Assembly: GCF_014904695.1 (NCBI RefSeq)
Contig: NZ_JACXXN010000009.1
Span: 1-64,000, forward strand
Origin: Nostoc sp. MG11
Lineage (GTDB): Bacteria; Cyanobacteriota; Cyanobacteriia; Cyanobacteriales; Nostocaceae
Direction: 5' to 3'
DNA length: 64,000 bases
The translations under genes and the position numbers were made by a program. Position 1 is the first letter of the stretch. Each line of letters starts with the position of its first letter. Shown in pieces: positions 2,504 to 13,165 of the stretch. The notes beneath the pieces were generated by a model. That model worked only from the letters and a program-made list of their open reading frames with translations. It ran no database searches and was not told where the DNA came from.

Positions 2504-3583
2504 TAACGCAAGTTGCTAGTTACTCACTCCAGAGCTTCGGGCTGGGGTATCGTGCATGGTTACTCAGATAATAAAATCCCCTCCAGTGAGATCAAAAGAG
2601 GGGAAGATGCTAAACGAAATAATTACGGTCTATGCTATCATCGACGACTTGTTAAAGGCTGTTGGGCATGATGAAGACAGTCGTCGAGAGATGAGCGATG
2701 CAAAAATTATATAACGGCGTTAGTAGCAGCGATGTTCTTTAATGGCAATCAAAGCAAAGCTTGCAATTATACGAAAGACCATCTGCTAGTGCCTAAGATA
2801 TTAGAAAAATCACGCTTCAATCGACGATTACATCATGTATCAATGTTGCTCAACGATGTATTTCATCAAGTGGGAATGATAGTCAAAGAAATTAGTGATT
2901 GTACGGAATACCTTTTAGACTCATTTCCAGTACCAATGTGCGATAACATCCGAATATTTAACGTGGGATTAATCAAATCAGAAGATTATAGAGGTTACAT
3001 AGCATCAAAAAAACGCTATTTCTACGGGGTGAGAGTGCAGTTATTAACCACTAAAAGCGGTATCCCAGTAGAGTTTGCCTTCATGCCTGGTAGTGCAAAT
3101 GATGTTAGAGCTTTGAAGCGTTGCCATTCAATTTACCAACAGCGAGTGAGATATATACTGATTCAGCTTATACAGACTATACGCTGGAAGATGACATTTT
3201 TCATCCCAGTCAAATCACACTAAAAGTCATGCGTAAAAAGAATTCCAAGCGTCAAGATCAACCTTGGAATCAATATATTAAACAATCGACTCGACATTAC
3301 ATAGAAACTGTATTTAGCGCAATTACTTGTATTTTTCCCAAATCGATTCACGCAGTCACATATGAGGGATTTCTACTGAAGCTTGAAGCATTTATTTTAG
3401 CTTTTACTCTTAAACAGGCATTTAGCCAACAAGTATTGTTTAGTACTTATTATCTAAGTAAAATGCTTTTTTAATCCATTGAAATCGCGGTTGCACCCAG
3501 CGTCACCGTCGATTCTTTGCGTTCAATTATGTTCACTTCTAGGCGCGTTGCGCCTAAAGTTTGATAACTCGCAACTTGGGTTA
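2504..3583 (+). mobile_element. IS982-family insertion sequence, decayed
   Basis: Imperfect terminal inverted repeats bound the element: left TAACGCAAGTTGCTAGTTA (2504-2522) and, as reverse complement at the right end (3565-3583), TAACCCAAGTTGCGAGTTA, 17 of 19 identical. Between them lies one transposase gene (2607-3474) with two frameshifts, so the copy is dead. The length, about 1.08 kb, suits IS982. The right end abuts a codon of the tnsB remnant (minus strand), showing that the IS landed inside that gene. No clear target duplication was seen; the left flank no longer encodes tnsB, so sequence was probably lost there. Confidence 0.75.
2607..3474 (+). pseudogene. IS982-family transposase, two frameshifts
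   Basis: Frame 1 (2607 to ~2712) reads IITVYAIIDDLLKAVGHDED then hits a stop after a likely 2-base TA insertion; frame 2 (~2712 to ~3117) reads the conserved core LLDSFPVPMCDNIRIF...SEDYRGYIASKKRYFYGVRVQLLTT; a single-base loss near 3117 shifts to frame 3, which reads IYTDSAYTDYTLEDD, KKNSKRQDQPWNQYIKQ, IETVFSAI and PKSIHAVT. These are the DDE-fold blocks of IS982 transposases: the aspartate of LDSFPV, the aspartate of IYTDSAY and the glutamate of IETVFS are the expected catalytic triad. Rejoined length is about 288 residues, normal for the family. Two independent frameshifts make it non-functional. Confidence 0.85.
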
Positions 3584-3936
3584 TTAGCCGTCGCACTGTA
3601 CGTACTGACTTACCAAGCTTTTCTGCTGCTTCCTTGAGCTTTTGAGTGTATCAGAACTTACGCACTCAGATCCCCCAACCCCCTTAGAAAGGGGGCTTTA
3701 GACGTTCCCCCCTTAAAAAGGGGGGTTAGGGGGGATCAGGGTTTCAGGCTTCAGTGCGTAAGTCCTATGTATGTAGTGCGATCGCTATTTTCCAAAAGAC
3801 TTTGAATCACCTCCATTTTCAGCAAAGCTTCATCCGAAAGTTTAGAAACAATAACGTTTGCTTCAGCAAGATCGTTGTTAACATCTGCGGAACTTGCCCA
3901 AGTTGTAGAGGTTGTAGAAGATTTTGCATCTTGCAT
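3584..3936 (-). pseudogene. tnsB (Tn7-like/CAST TniA-type transposase) N-terminal remnant
   Basis: On the minus strand an ATG at 3936 opens a frame that reads KLSDEALLKMEVIQSLLE, then NSDRTTY, where it is interrupted by a 119-bp MITE (3651-3769). On the far side of the MITE the frame resumes TQKLKEAAEKLGKSVRTVRRL, where the IS982 end cuts it off at 3584. Removing the MITE and one TA joins DRTTY to TQKLKEAAEK with no frameshift. This is the N-terminal helix-turn-helix region of TniA/TnsB Mu-type DDE transposases, and from memory closest to TnsB of type V-K CRISPR-associated transposons (ShTnsB reads VIQSLLEPCDRTTYGQKLR). The catalytic DDE core, tnsC and tniQ are absent from the window. About 80 codons survive. 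Confidence 0.8.
3651..3769. mobile_element. 119-bp MITE with TA target duplication
   Basis: Bounded by TA dinucleotides at 3649-3650 and 3770-3771. The ends share an inverted core, AACTTACGCACT on the left and AGTGCGTAAGTC on the right; the interior holds strong G/C-rich inverted repeats (ATCCCCCAACCCCC and GGGGGGTTAGGGGGGAT). It has no coding capacity. Removing it with one TA restores the tnsB reading frame, which fixes the boundaries. TA duplication and small size suggest mobilisation by an IS630/Tc1-type transposase. Confidence 0.8.
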
Positions 3937-3978
3937 ACAGTGTTTTATCAAAACATGATTGTATTATACTAATAAATT

Positions 3979-4213
3979 GACAAATAATTTGTTAATTTAT
4001 GAAAAGTTATGATTTTTCCAGGTTTCTGGAAAGTGACAATTAAATTGTGAAATATCTGGTATTTGACATCTAATTAGTGAATACCGACTTAGATGGGTAT
4101 AACTGTCTTAAATAGGAAAAACCCTGACATAATCCTTGCTATGTCAGGGTTTTAGGCATTTAGAATGCTGTGACAAGTTTTTGTTAAATGGACAAATAAT
4201 TAGTGAATGTACA
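3979..4213 (-). other. Putative Tn7-like transposon end with five TnsB-site-like repeats
   Basis: Just upstream of the tnsB remnant are same-orientation copies of a ~17-bp motif: GACAAATAATTTGTTAA (3979), GACAATTAAATTGTGAA (4035), GACATCTAATTAGTGAA (4065), a shorter GACAAGTTTTTGTTAAA (4172) and GACAAATAATTAGTGAA (4191). The last runs into TGTACA ending at 4213; read on the minus strand the element therefore starts TGTACATTCAC. Tn7-like and CAST elements have 5'-TGT ends, several spaced TnsB-binding repeats, and tnsB transcribed away from this end; all three are seen. The opposite end was not found. Confidence 0.65.
4117..4153. terminator. Strong bidirectional hairpin inside the transposon end
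   Basis: AAAACCCTGACATA (4117-4130 plus one) pairs perfectly with TATGTCAGGGTTTT (4140-4153) around an 8-base loop, flanked by A and T tracts on the two sides, so it can terminate in both directions. It lies between the TnsB-like repeats and may insulate the element from outside transcription. Confidence 0.6.
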
Positions 4214-4527
4214 ATAACGCCTCTATTTTCAGTTTTAGGTAGAATAACCTTTAGCTTTATCCCGCTTGTTATAGAGAATTGTAGAGCTAGGTATTACAGC
4301 TTAAATCCTATGAAGGCTAATCATTCAACACCACAATTATGCTTATACAGCTAAAGTAGCACCGTCATAGAATTCATCCATACAATATCGCCTACATTCA
4401 ACTGACTAGTAACCCAGCGGTTCTTGACTTCCAATTTGATTATGAATGGTTGTAGAGGTTTAATAGCAAGCGCACTCCCAAAAACCTTAGAATAATTAAG
4501 GTGTATTCAACTTTGTAGTAAATATTT
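4214..4527. other. Gap without a confident gene; possible short coding scrap
   Basis: No complete gene. On the minus strand from about 4500 down to the TAG at ~4353 there is an open stretch without a start codon that reads ALAIKPLQPFI, IKLEVKNRWVTSQL and NVGDIVW. It has protein-like composition and could be a fragment left by transposon decay, but no family is recognised and chance is not excluded. Confidence 0.3.
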
Positions 4528-10706: not shown

Positions 10707-11459
10707 ATGCTTGTTTTTATTATTCCACTCAAAAGCCCCCAAGTTTCCAATTCCTGGGAGCGTGTTACACAATTATTTGAAAGATGCATTAAATCAGTTT
10801 GCAATCAAACCTCACCTAACTTTCGCGTTATTGTTGTTTGTCACGAAAAGCCAAAAATAGAATTTAATCATTCCCACATTACATATATTACAGTTGATTT
10901 TTCACCTGCAAACGAGACTAACCCTGTAGCTCAAGGAGACACAGATAAAGGACGTAAAATCTTGAAAGGATTGATTTACGCTCGTCAATTTTGTCCTACT
11001 CATACTATGGCGGTTGATGCTGACGATTGTGTCAGTAAAAAGTTAGCCAAATTTATTCAACAACATCCTGATTCTAATGGATGGTTTATAAATAAAGGTT
11101 ATAAATATCAAGAAGGAAGTAAATATATATATATTAAAAGAAACAATTTTTATAAAATGTGCGGTACTTGTAACATTACTCGATATGATTTGAATTATTT
11201 ACCAGAAACCGCAGAATATAATCGTGGCTATGGATACTACAGATATTATATAGACCACGCCAAAGTTAGGGATATTCTCAAAAACAAAGCGAAAGCCATT
11301 AAATCATTACCATTCCCCGGTGCAGTTTATATCCTGGAAACAGGAGAAAATCTTTTTGATAATTCCAAAAGATTAAGATTCAGCATTTTTAATCGCAAAC
11401 TATTAAATCAATCAATTAGAGATGAATTCGGACTGTACAACTTACAGCAAATATCATAA
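10707..11459 (+). CDS. Glycosyltransferase-like (GT-A fold) protein in the polysaccharide cluster
   Basis: A 250-residue protein. The N-terminus (LVFIIPLKSPQVSNSWERV), a nucleotide-binding beta strand FRVIVVCHEKP and the acidic motif AVDADDCVS near residue 107 fit a family-2-like GT-A glycosyltransferase; the DxD-type motif would bind the divalent metal and nucleotide sugar. It has no membrane helix, unlike many processive GT2 enzymes. It is the first gene of a same-strand run leading into the hpsL-like polymerase, 53 bases downstream, so a part in the same exopolysaccharide is inferred. Donor and acceptor sugars are unknown. A possible AGGATT ribosome-binding site precedes the ATG. Confidence 0.65.
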   Translation: MLVFIIPLKSPQVSNSWERVTQLFERCIKSVCNQTSPNFRVIVVCHEKPKIEFNHSHITYITVDFSPANETNPVAQGDTDKGRKILKGLIYARQFCPTHTMAVDADDCVSKKLAKFIQQHPDSNGWFINKGYKYQEGSKYIYIKRNNFYKMCGTCNITRYDLNYLPETAEYNRGYGYYRYYIDHAKVRDILKNKAKAIKSLPFPGAVYILETGENLFDNSKRLRFSIFNRKLLNQSIRDEFGLYNLQQIS

Positions 11460-11512: not shown

Positions 11513-13165
11513 ATGCCAAAATTCAAATCAAAATCTCAGTCATCTAAAAATTCAAAAAAGCAGGCTAAAAAGGAAACTCCTACCCTTAGCCTCAAAGAAA
11601 GGTTAGCTCAAAAGCGCAAAGCAGCCCAAGCCCGTAAAGAACTCACTAGCTTGCTTACCACCGCCACCTTTGGCGGTGTCTTTGTTGGCATTCTGCTCTT
11701 TTTCGTAGGTGGAATTAAAATGGCGGCTCCTGCGGTCTTGGGGATACTTGTCATGTCCTTTTCCTTCAAATATCCCCGCCAAGCTCTATTTGCTTTCATC
11801 ATTTATGTACCTATTGGGGGTACTATTACTTACTATTTGGGCAATAGTCCCATACTCCAATTGGCTAAAGATTCCTTTTACGTTCCAGCATTAATTGGAT
11901 TTTGGCAAACTTGTCGCAAGCAGGGACTACCCCTAATTATTCCCCAAGGCATTAAAATTCCGCTGTATATTGTCTTGGGTTGCAGTCTATTAACGCTGTT
12001 GTTTATCAATGGTGGACAGCAGTTTAACCCGCCTAGTGTCGGACTACTAGAAAATGCACCCAAAGAAATACCCATAGGTATGGGAATTTTGGGACTTAAA
12101 GTATTTTTAGGTTACGTTCCTCTGATTGGTTGTGCTTACTATCTAATTCGCAACAAGCAGGATTTTCTATTTTTATCGCGCTTACAGATTGTTCTCATCA
12201 TCATTTGCTGTGTACTAGGACTTATTCAGTATTTGTTACTACTAACTGGTGTATGCCAAGGTACTAGAGGACTCGAAGGAGACGCCTTATTTAGAGCTAC
12301 ACTCGAAGCTCGGTGTTATTTTGGTGGAGCGCTAGTATATAGTCCCGAAGAAGGGATTATTCGCCTACCAGGAACTTTTGTGGCTCCTTGGCAATGGGCG
12401 TGGTTCTTAATTGCCAGTACCTTTTTTACGTTTGCCACAGGCTTCACCGACCCATCGGTAATATGGCGGATGCTCGGTTTAGGTTCTTTGGCATTGGTCT
12501 TTATTAATGCTGTAGTCTCTGGGCAAAGAATTGCTCTAGCTTTAGTACCAACCTGCTTCATTATTTTGCTATTGCTTACTGGTCAAATTGCCAACCTCAA
12601 ACGGTTTATCCCCATTGGTATAGGACTTGCGTTGATTCTGGGAATTGCGATGGTAACTAACCCTGCTGTCGTGCAAGAGAGAACCGAGAGTTTTACGAGC
12701 CGCTGGGACGCTTCACCACCTCAAGATTTTATCGTCCAGCAATTTGAAGAGAATTGGAAAAATGTAGACGGCCCCTTGGGAAGTGGCTTAGGCCGAGCTA
12801 CAAACTCTGCCCGTGCAATGGGTTCAACTAAGTTAGTGGAAACCTACTACCCCAAAGTACTTTTTGAAGTGGGAATTGTTGGATTATTAGCGTTCTTGGC
12901 TTTGGTGACAACTTTAACAATCATTGCCTTCAAAACGTATCGCTCCATAAAAAACCGTAATTTCCGCAGTTACGGAGCTGCTTTATGGGTGTTTATATTG
13001 TTTATTAGCTACAACACCTATTACTACCCTCTGGATGTAGACCCGGTTGCTGTCTATTATTGGTTTTTTGCGGGAGTTCTTTTCAAATTGCCAGTCTTGG
13101 AGAAACAAGAGAAGGAAGATACTGAGCCTCAACAAACAACTAAGCGAAAACGGTTACAAACATAA
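11513..13165 (+). CDS. hpsL: Hormogonium polysaccharide polymerase/ligase-like protein HpsL
   Basis: A 550-residue polytopic membrane protein. Residues 1-45 are a Lys/Arg/Ser/Gln-rich cytoplasmic segment (KERLAQKRKAAQARKE); about eleven hydrophobic helices follow between ~47 and ~520, with a large periplasmic loop at ~385-440 (RTESFTSRWDASPPQDF, GSGLGRATNSARAMG) of the kind that carries catalytic residues in Wzy/O-antigen-ligase-fold proteins; the tail is charged. I recognise it as the HpsL family of filamentous cyanobacteria, required for the exopolysaccharide that supports gliding hormogonia. The place in a run with HpsN-, HpsO- and HpsP-like genes supports this. Whether it polymerises or ligates the glycan is not known. 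Confidence 0.8.
   Translation: MPKFKSKSQSSKNSKKQAKKETPTLSLKERLAQKRKAAQARKELTSLLTTATFGGVFVGILLFFVGGIKMAAPAVLGILVMSFSFKYPRQALFAFIIYVPIGGTITYYLGNSPILQLAKDSFYVPALIGFWQTCRKQGLPLIIPQGIKIPLYIVLGCSLLTLLFINGGQQFNPPSVGLLENAPKEIPIGMGILGLKVFLGYVPLIGCAYYLIRNKQDFLFLSRLQIVLIIICCVLGLIQYLLLLTGVCQGTRGLEGDALFRATLEARCYFGGALVYSPEEGIIRLPGTFVAPWQWAWFLIASTFFTFATGFTDPSVIWRMLGLGSLALVFINAVVSGQRIALALVPTCFIILLLLTGQIANLKRFIPIGIGLALILGIAMVTNPAVVQERTESFTSRWDASPPQDFIVQQFEENWKNVDGPLGSGLGRATNSARAMGSTKLVETYYPKVLFEVGIVGLLAFLALVTTLTIIAFKTYRSIKNRNFRSYGAALWVFILFISYNTYYYPLDVDPVAVYYWFFAGVLFKLPVLEKQEKEDTEPQQTTKRKRLQT

Follow-up and report, generated by a model that had tools for sequence, protein, structure and literature searches.

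A fragmentary type V-K CAST right end in Nostoc sp. MG11 with a covarying, terminator-like hairpin

Type V-K CRISPR-associated transposons (CASTs), the family of ShCAST and AnCAST, are inserted by TnsB, TnsC, TniQ and Cas12k-crRNA next to a crRNA-matched site, mostly at tRNA genes. In the accessible text of PMC9938897 “left end” denotes the side of these elements that faces the tRNA, and “right end” the one that carries tnsB; anchor spacers of 17 nt, GTN PAMs and distances of 46-82 nt with one exception are given there. Why TnsB sites are so unevenly spaced at either end is, in the available part of PMC9371665, called a “lingering mystery”. At the edges of insertion sequences, 5' terminators protecting the transposase gene are known (PMC2965389, which in its accessible text cites Tn10 and IS200 work on the subject).

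Here, we describe a locus in a window of 64 kb (the whole stretch of Nostoc sp. MG11 DNA analysed) that we read, with high confidence, as a dead type V-K CAST remnant, cut by an IS982-family element and a multicopy repeat, located at a rearrangement join and carrying a hairpin-bearing end. The locus has in common with type V-K CASTs its TnsB homology, a TGT terminus, several TnsB-site-like repeats and the order of right end followed by tnsB, and a copy in the same genome, on C128, adds Cas12k pieces, a MerR gene, an anchor spacer and a tRNA. It differs from them in being a fragment that lacks the left end, tnsC, tniQ, cas12k and array, and in being interrupted by the repeat and cut at the insertion sequence. 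Like the degenerated loci counted in PMC9938897 it is an incomplete cyanobacterial CAST piece, but that count, as far as the accessible text describes it, starts from cas12k and regulator genes, and our tnsB-end-only remnant has neither.

The remnant itself belongs to a known kind and is unremarkable as such, but valuable as a chromosome-level record of V-K CAST decay amid insertion sequences and rearrangements, and the new part is the covarying hairpin. The 5' terminators of insertion sequences (PMC2965389, accessible text) are likewise edge structures upstream of a transposase, where they block outside transcription; the CAST hairpin, in contrast, is placed among the transposase sites of a Tn7-like element that is CRISPR-guided, and it is covariation that points to it. 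The occurrence of CAST pieces at the joins of one displaced region is also noteworthy, if less so.

A right end cut by an insertion sequence and a multicopy repeat

The remnant spans positions 3582-4213 on the minus strand and consists of the tnsB-side end and the first ~80 codons of tnsB; by the end naming of PMC9938897 (accessible text), the window therefore holds a right end. The initial annotation had reported here a minus-strand remnant with VIQSLLENSDRTTY and KLKEAAEKLGKSVRTVRRL, five ~17-bp repeats ending in TGTACA at 4213, and had read these as the tnsB-side end of a Tn7-like element. Both sequences were located, VIQSLLENSDRTTY within a 66-aa ORF (minus strand, 3751-3951) and KLKEAAEKLGKSVRTVRRL at 3582-3651 (minus strand), on the far side of a ~116-bp insert. 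The proposed comparison of the peptide with TnsB bore out the assignment: up to an E-value of 1, the 66-aa ORF matched three distinct PDB sequences, every one named TnsB (best E 4.4e-6, residues 29-61), which we take to be ShCAST TnsB, while a Pfam search of the same ORF returned no credible family. The 5' part of the tnsB remnant, with a TTG start at 3951, covers 3770-3951 (minus strand) and is defined by these matches together with homology to the C128 copy.

This sibling copy delimits the remnant closely. Window positions 3770-4214 align with C128 3708-3265 at 92% identity (410/445), and the continuation of tnsB past the insert, at 3582-3651, is identical to C128 3775-3706 at 67 of 70 positions. 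Because this homology covers both segments, the edges first proposed prove correct to within 2 bp, and the reading as a tnsB-side end gains support from the sibling as well as from the TnsB matches. The terminal TGTACA lies at 4208-4213 (minus strand), C128 homology stops at 4214, and the outermost 23 bp of the right end are identical in the two copies. This 23-bp terminus has a single match in the 64-kb window and, allowing up to three mismatches, five in the genome, namely two in C128 and one each in the window, C149 (two mismatches) and C161 (three mismatches, a weak end with just 27 bp in common with the C128 stretch). No second or partner end was found within the 64-kb window; the window begins at the contig start, and therefore there is no sequence to its left on that contig. 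A search of plasmids with the right end gave no match.

Inward of the terminus follow five TnsB-site-like repeats on the minus strand, at 4191-4207, 4172-4187, 4065-4081, 4035-4051 and 3979-3995 (repeats 1 to 5), so that a 5'-TGT terminus and several predicted TnsB sites adjoin tnsB. Four of the five stand as annotated: the pattern GACAnnTAAnTnGTnAA has plus-strand matches at 3979, 4035, 4065 and 4191, all within 3979-4207 and none elsewhere in the 64 kb, against 0.02 expected from shuffles of the window. The fifth, at 4172, was found by a relaxed pattern only.

The insert that splits tnsB, at 3652-3769, is a MITE-like repeat of ~116 bp with ends GAACTTACGCAC and GTGCGTAAGTCC, recognised from its genome copies and from the C128 alignment. 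A search of the genome with it gave 59 matching pieces; three come from the window itself or from the CAST on C128, and the other 56 overlap the repeat, some genomic places being split into two pieces. Directly abutting tnsB is an IS982-family element at 2506-3581 (plus strand) with a broken transposase, whose NF033520 match (E 8e-27) scores 94 bits versus a curated cut-off of 130. Its end repeats resemble those of a copy in G004 that has TAGTA on both sides; the window element, which meets tnsB at 3582, is flanked by TAGTA on its left side but by TATTA on its right, a one-base difference that could be a mutation. The element marks a join, since host homology stops at its left side. In the ancestral transposon, TnsB would have bound the repeats of the right and left ends and, together with TnsC, TniQ and Cas12k-crRNA, would have inserted the transposon next to a site matched by the crRNA, in most cases at a tRNA gene. 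Its body is now gone, and what is left of tnsB ends at the IS982-family element and is also split by the multicopy repeat.

Rearrangement joins and a left end on C149

Comparison with G003, a genome of the same genus, places the remnant at a join created by rearrangement. Joins were placed at window positions 2505, 4410 and 42638, at C139 5460-5771, C205 293996, and C149 27798 and 43151; a stretch of ~52 kb has moved from its place and now lies over two contigs, and two other sites have swapped halves. Replicative CAST transposition as the cause is unsupported, as the joins fall either within the element or 196 bp beyond its end, and at the one on C139 there is no CAST match. The displaced region is split between C238, with the window remnant, and C149, where a CAST left-end remnant at tRNA-Arg(ccg) lies at another of its joins. 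No anchor spacer was recognisable by eye at this candidate left end.

It is an evenly balanced proposition, in our judgement, that the window remnant and the C149 left end go back to separate insertions, the former of a V-K CAST, both remnants lying at joins because tRNA-rich, IS-rich places break often. The DNA beside the two remnants forms, in G003, the two ends of one ~52-kb stretch, which speaks for a common origin, yet in the present genome each of the two contigs carrying the displaced region runs on into other DNA. The orientation of the ends is that of one split element, whereas the cas12k scrap on C149 is inverted relative to the C149 left end. In G002, too, tRNA-Arg(ccg) is accompanied by the remnant of a left end, and in two other genomes the core of the window's flank lies 227 bp downstream of this tRNA gene, again against independence; the flank at 4214, however, is unlike what immediately follows tRNA-Arg(ccg) in relatives, and its core is also found downstream of tRNA-Thr, -Lys, -Val and -Met. 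By eye, the window and C149 ends have no target duplication in common, as independent insertions would suggest, although this is weak evidence because the C128 element likewise has 5-bp flanks that do not match each other, while a copy in G192 (L135) has TTATT on either side. That the window right end and the C149 left end are halves of one element is possible, and we place it slightly below an even chance because the displaced region is divided over two contigs, each extending beyond it into different sequence.

Outside the end, the flank occupies 4214-4409, its part 4221-4330 resembling DNA near tRNA genes in other genomes, and host DNA is syntenic from 4410 onward. A search of plasmids with 4210-4412 gave no match; among 118 genomes of the family, six including its own had a match, and of the other five only G039 matched over more than 30 bp. 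The stretch 4214-4330 is conserved downstream of various tRNA genes (L082, L087, L089, L092, L094, L097-L101), and in some family genomes TTTTCTCTCA-like repeats lie between the tRNA and the stretch. In L101 and L087, inverted partial copies of the anticodon arm, reminiscent of anchor spacers, were seen by eye shortly 3' of tRNA-Val and tRNA-Met.

Type V-K membership and distribution of the end

The C128 element extends over L006 3266-11546, bounded by the 23-bp terminus with zero and one mismatch on opposite strands, 8.3 kb apart. Its tnsB is a single 584-aa frame without a stop, which supplies the full-length tnsB that the initial annotation had proposed to look for elsewhere in the genome; the protein matches Pfam Mu-transpos_C, and rve slightly under the cut-off. 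The tnsC frame has a stop after 83 codons (versus 278 in G168) and is followed by a scrap that we take to be TniQ-like, partly for its likeness to a G168 stretch that is itself interrupted by a stop. Cas12k is represented by three pieces with NF038191 matches (E 6e-35, 2e-118 and 9e-111, of which the 6e-35 match is below the curated cut-off), stops occur within cas12k, and a MerR-type gene adjoins it, as CvkR, likewise of MerR type, does in the accessible text of PMC9938897. A short CRISPR repeat at 11404 precedes a spacer of 17 nt, at 11417, whose reverse-orientation match lies in tRNA-Cys at 11587; the PAM is GTG and the distance to the left end 57 nt.

These comparisons support placing the window remnant within a type V-K CAST fossil, at its tnsB-side end. 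Of the parts typical of such elements, it retains the N-terminal portion of a V-K kind of TnsB; tnsC and tniQ went at the break, and their counterparts in C128 are the broken gene and scrap just described, and C128 has at its left end both a tRNA and an anchor spacer. Alongside the window remnant neither a spacer nor a protospacer is preserved. There is no Cas12k match on the window's contig, in agreement with the initial annotation, and the segment that would carry cas12k is lost; with no second end in the window either, membership rests on the sibling and on relatives. The earlier annotation had left open whether the element was CRISPR-guided, and for the family C128, with its Cas12k pieces, anchor spacer and tRNA, now answers that it is of type V-K.

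The end type is widespread. A scan of the GTDB species collection with the query TGTACATTMACTAATTATTTGTC gave 105 stretches, and all 80 among the matches listed are cyanobacterial by title. Within 700 bp inward, 20 of the 105 have tnsB, and in 50 the 3' end of a tRNA lies no more than 120 bp outward. The two groups do not overlap, and 35 stretches belong to neither, five of these with cas12k matches and seven cut short on one side. The earlier concern that the repeats might occur with no link to transposase genes is therefore not borne out. TnsB matches at E 1e-10 or better, distant relatives included, were present in 146 of 208 genomes of the family; two were counted in the source genome, and among the matches listed C128 is one. 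In G168, a CAST (L132, 1121-18584) has long tnsB, tnsC and cas12k ORFs and a MerR gene, with a tniQ-like stretch containing one stop, and cargo ORFs that resemble restriction-modification and reverse-transcriptase genes, named from their translations.

We consider it very improbable that the locus is a non-autonomous element still mobilised in trans by the intact TnsB of C128: the first 23 bp are the same in the two copies and the C128 tnsB frame is free of stops, but the window has no second end and C128 offers only a tnsC that stops after 83 codons, a tniQ scrap and a cas12k with stops. Very improbable as well is that the repeats come from a Tn7-like element without CRISPR and that the TnsB match reflects general family likeness, since against the lack of a Cas12k match on the contig and the spread through the family of TnsB relatives down to ~42% identity among the matches listed stand the C128 sibling, which contradicts it (among the matches listed, the genome's only other full-length TnsB sits with Cas12k pieces), and G168, which shares 93% identity with the remnant in its right end and has a 667-aa ORF like C128 cas12k beside a MerR gene.

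A covarying hairpin between outer and inner repeats

Between repeats 2 and 3, with two repeats on its outer side and three on its inner side, the V-K right end carries a terminator-like hairpin directed towards tnsB (4153-4118, minus strand), consisting of a stem of 15 pairs and a T-run. A terminator scan of the window alone performed at chance level (1 found versus 1.0 expected), and therefore the case rests on covariation, on counts by a strict rule and on a second end type. Sources numbered 136 (the window, L006, L103-L131 and L165-L269) and yielded 39 right ends of TGTACA type that precede tnsB; compared over 125 bp, these comprise 28 distinct sequences. In the alignment of these 28 ends, 14 pairs were followed and 89.0% of 392 cells are paired; sliding the partner by 1-3 columns lowers this to 35-51%, a comparison that favours the unslid version as the pairs were taken from the window sequence. 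Eight of the 14 pairs changed on both sides, a figure reached in 1 of 500 shuffles, and the covariation score is 0.287 versus 0.121 when shuffled, with none of 500 shuffles as high, the shuffles ignoring kinship. RNAalifold, unaided and on the whole alignment, recovered nine of the 14 pairs, of which five have both partners changed; the energy of -6.6 kcal/mol is modest. Thus a GC-containing stem followed by a T-run, as in intrinsic terminators, is kept by covariation. As a known RNA family the hairpin was rejected, the single Rfam hit being partial, below the gathering score (E 0.38) and implausible.

A strict stem-plus-T rule passes in 24 of 31 distinct TGTACA ends and fails in seven; one of the 31, L130, begins at a false TGTACA and has the stem at its true end. 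The same rule also passes in 5 of 31 outside flanks, in 6 of the 40 left ends and, among 310 sequences shuffled at constant composition, in 5. Where no TGTACA lies upstream, the hairpin is present at six of 12 loci, and that of the C128 sibling is degraded. A second type of right end starts with TGTCG, and its TnsB is 72-75% identical to that of C128 in seven. Ten sequence matches of this type were obtained and eight aligned, L170 (a 23-bp end beside a tRNA) and L172 (a match running into unrelated DNA) being left out. All eight have a different stem at the same distance, with 97.7% of 88 cells paired and four of 11 pairs changed on both sides, a figure reached in 3 of 500 shuffles; the number of further pair types does not exceed that of shuffles (305 of 500 as high).

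The structure is thus backed by covariation, and a terminator function may be proposed for it: the hairpin and T-run would stop transcription from the flank ahead of tnsB and may so shield the transposase gene from outside transcription. We think it somewhat more probable than not that V-K CAST right ends possess an intrinsic terminator of their own, set in the gap that separates the outer from the inner TnsB sites and insulating tnsB from neighbouring transcription and leaving it to its own regulated promoter; the structure is kept by covariation and built differently in the two end types. If true, this would help account for the uneven TnsB-site spacing in this end. A working terminator would be an overlooked control part of V-K CASTs, would matter for donor-end design in CAST tools and would bear on the spacing question more widely.

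Among literature titles and abstracts, with most subscription papers outside the scope, there was no description of such a hairpin for CASTs. The words “terminator” and “hairpin” are absent from the main text of PMC9938897 as available, and “terminator” from the accessible portions of PMC9371665 and PMC9527255; in that of PMC10201428 it occurs once. The hairpin may also work outward, from an A-run on its 5' side.
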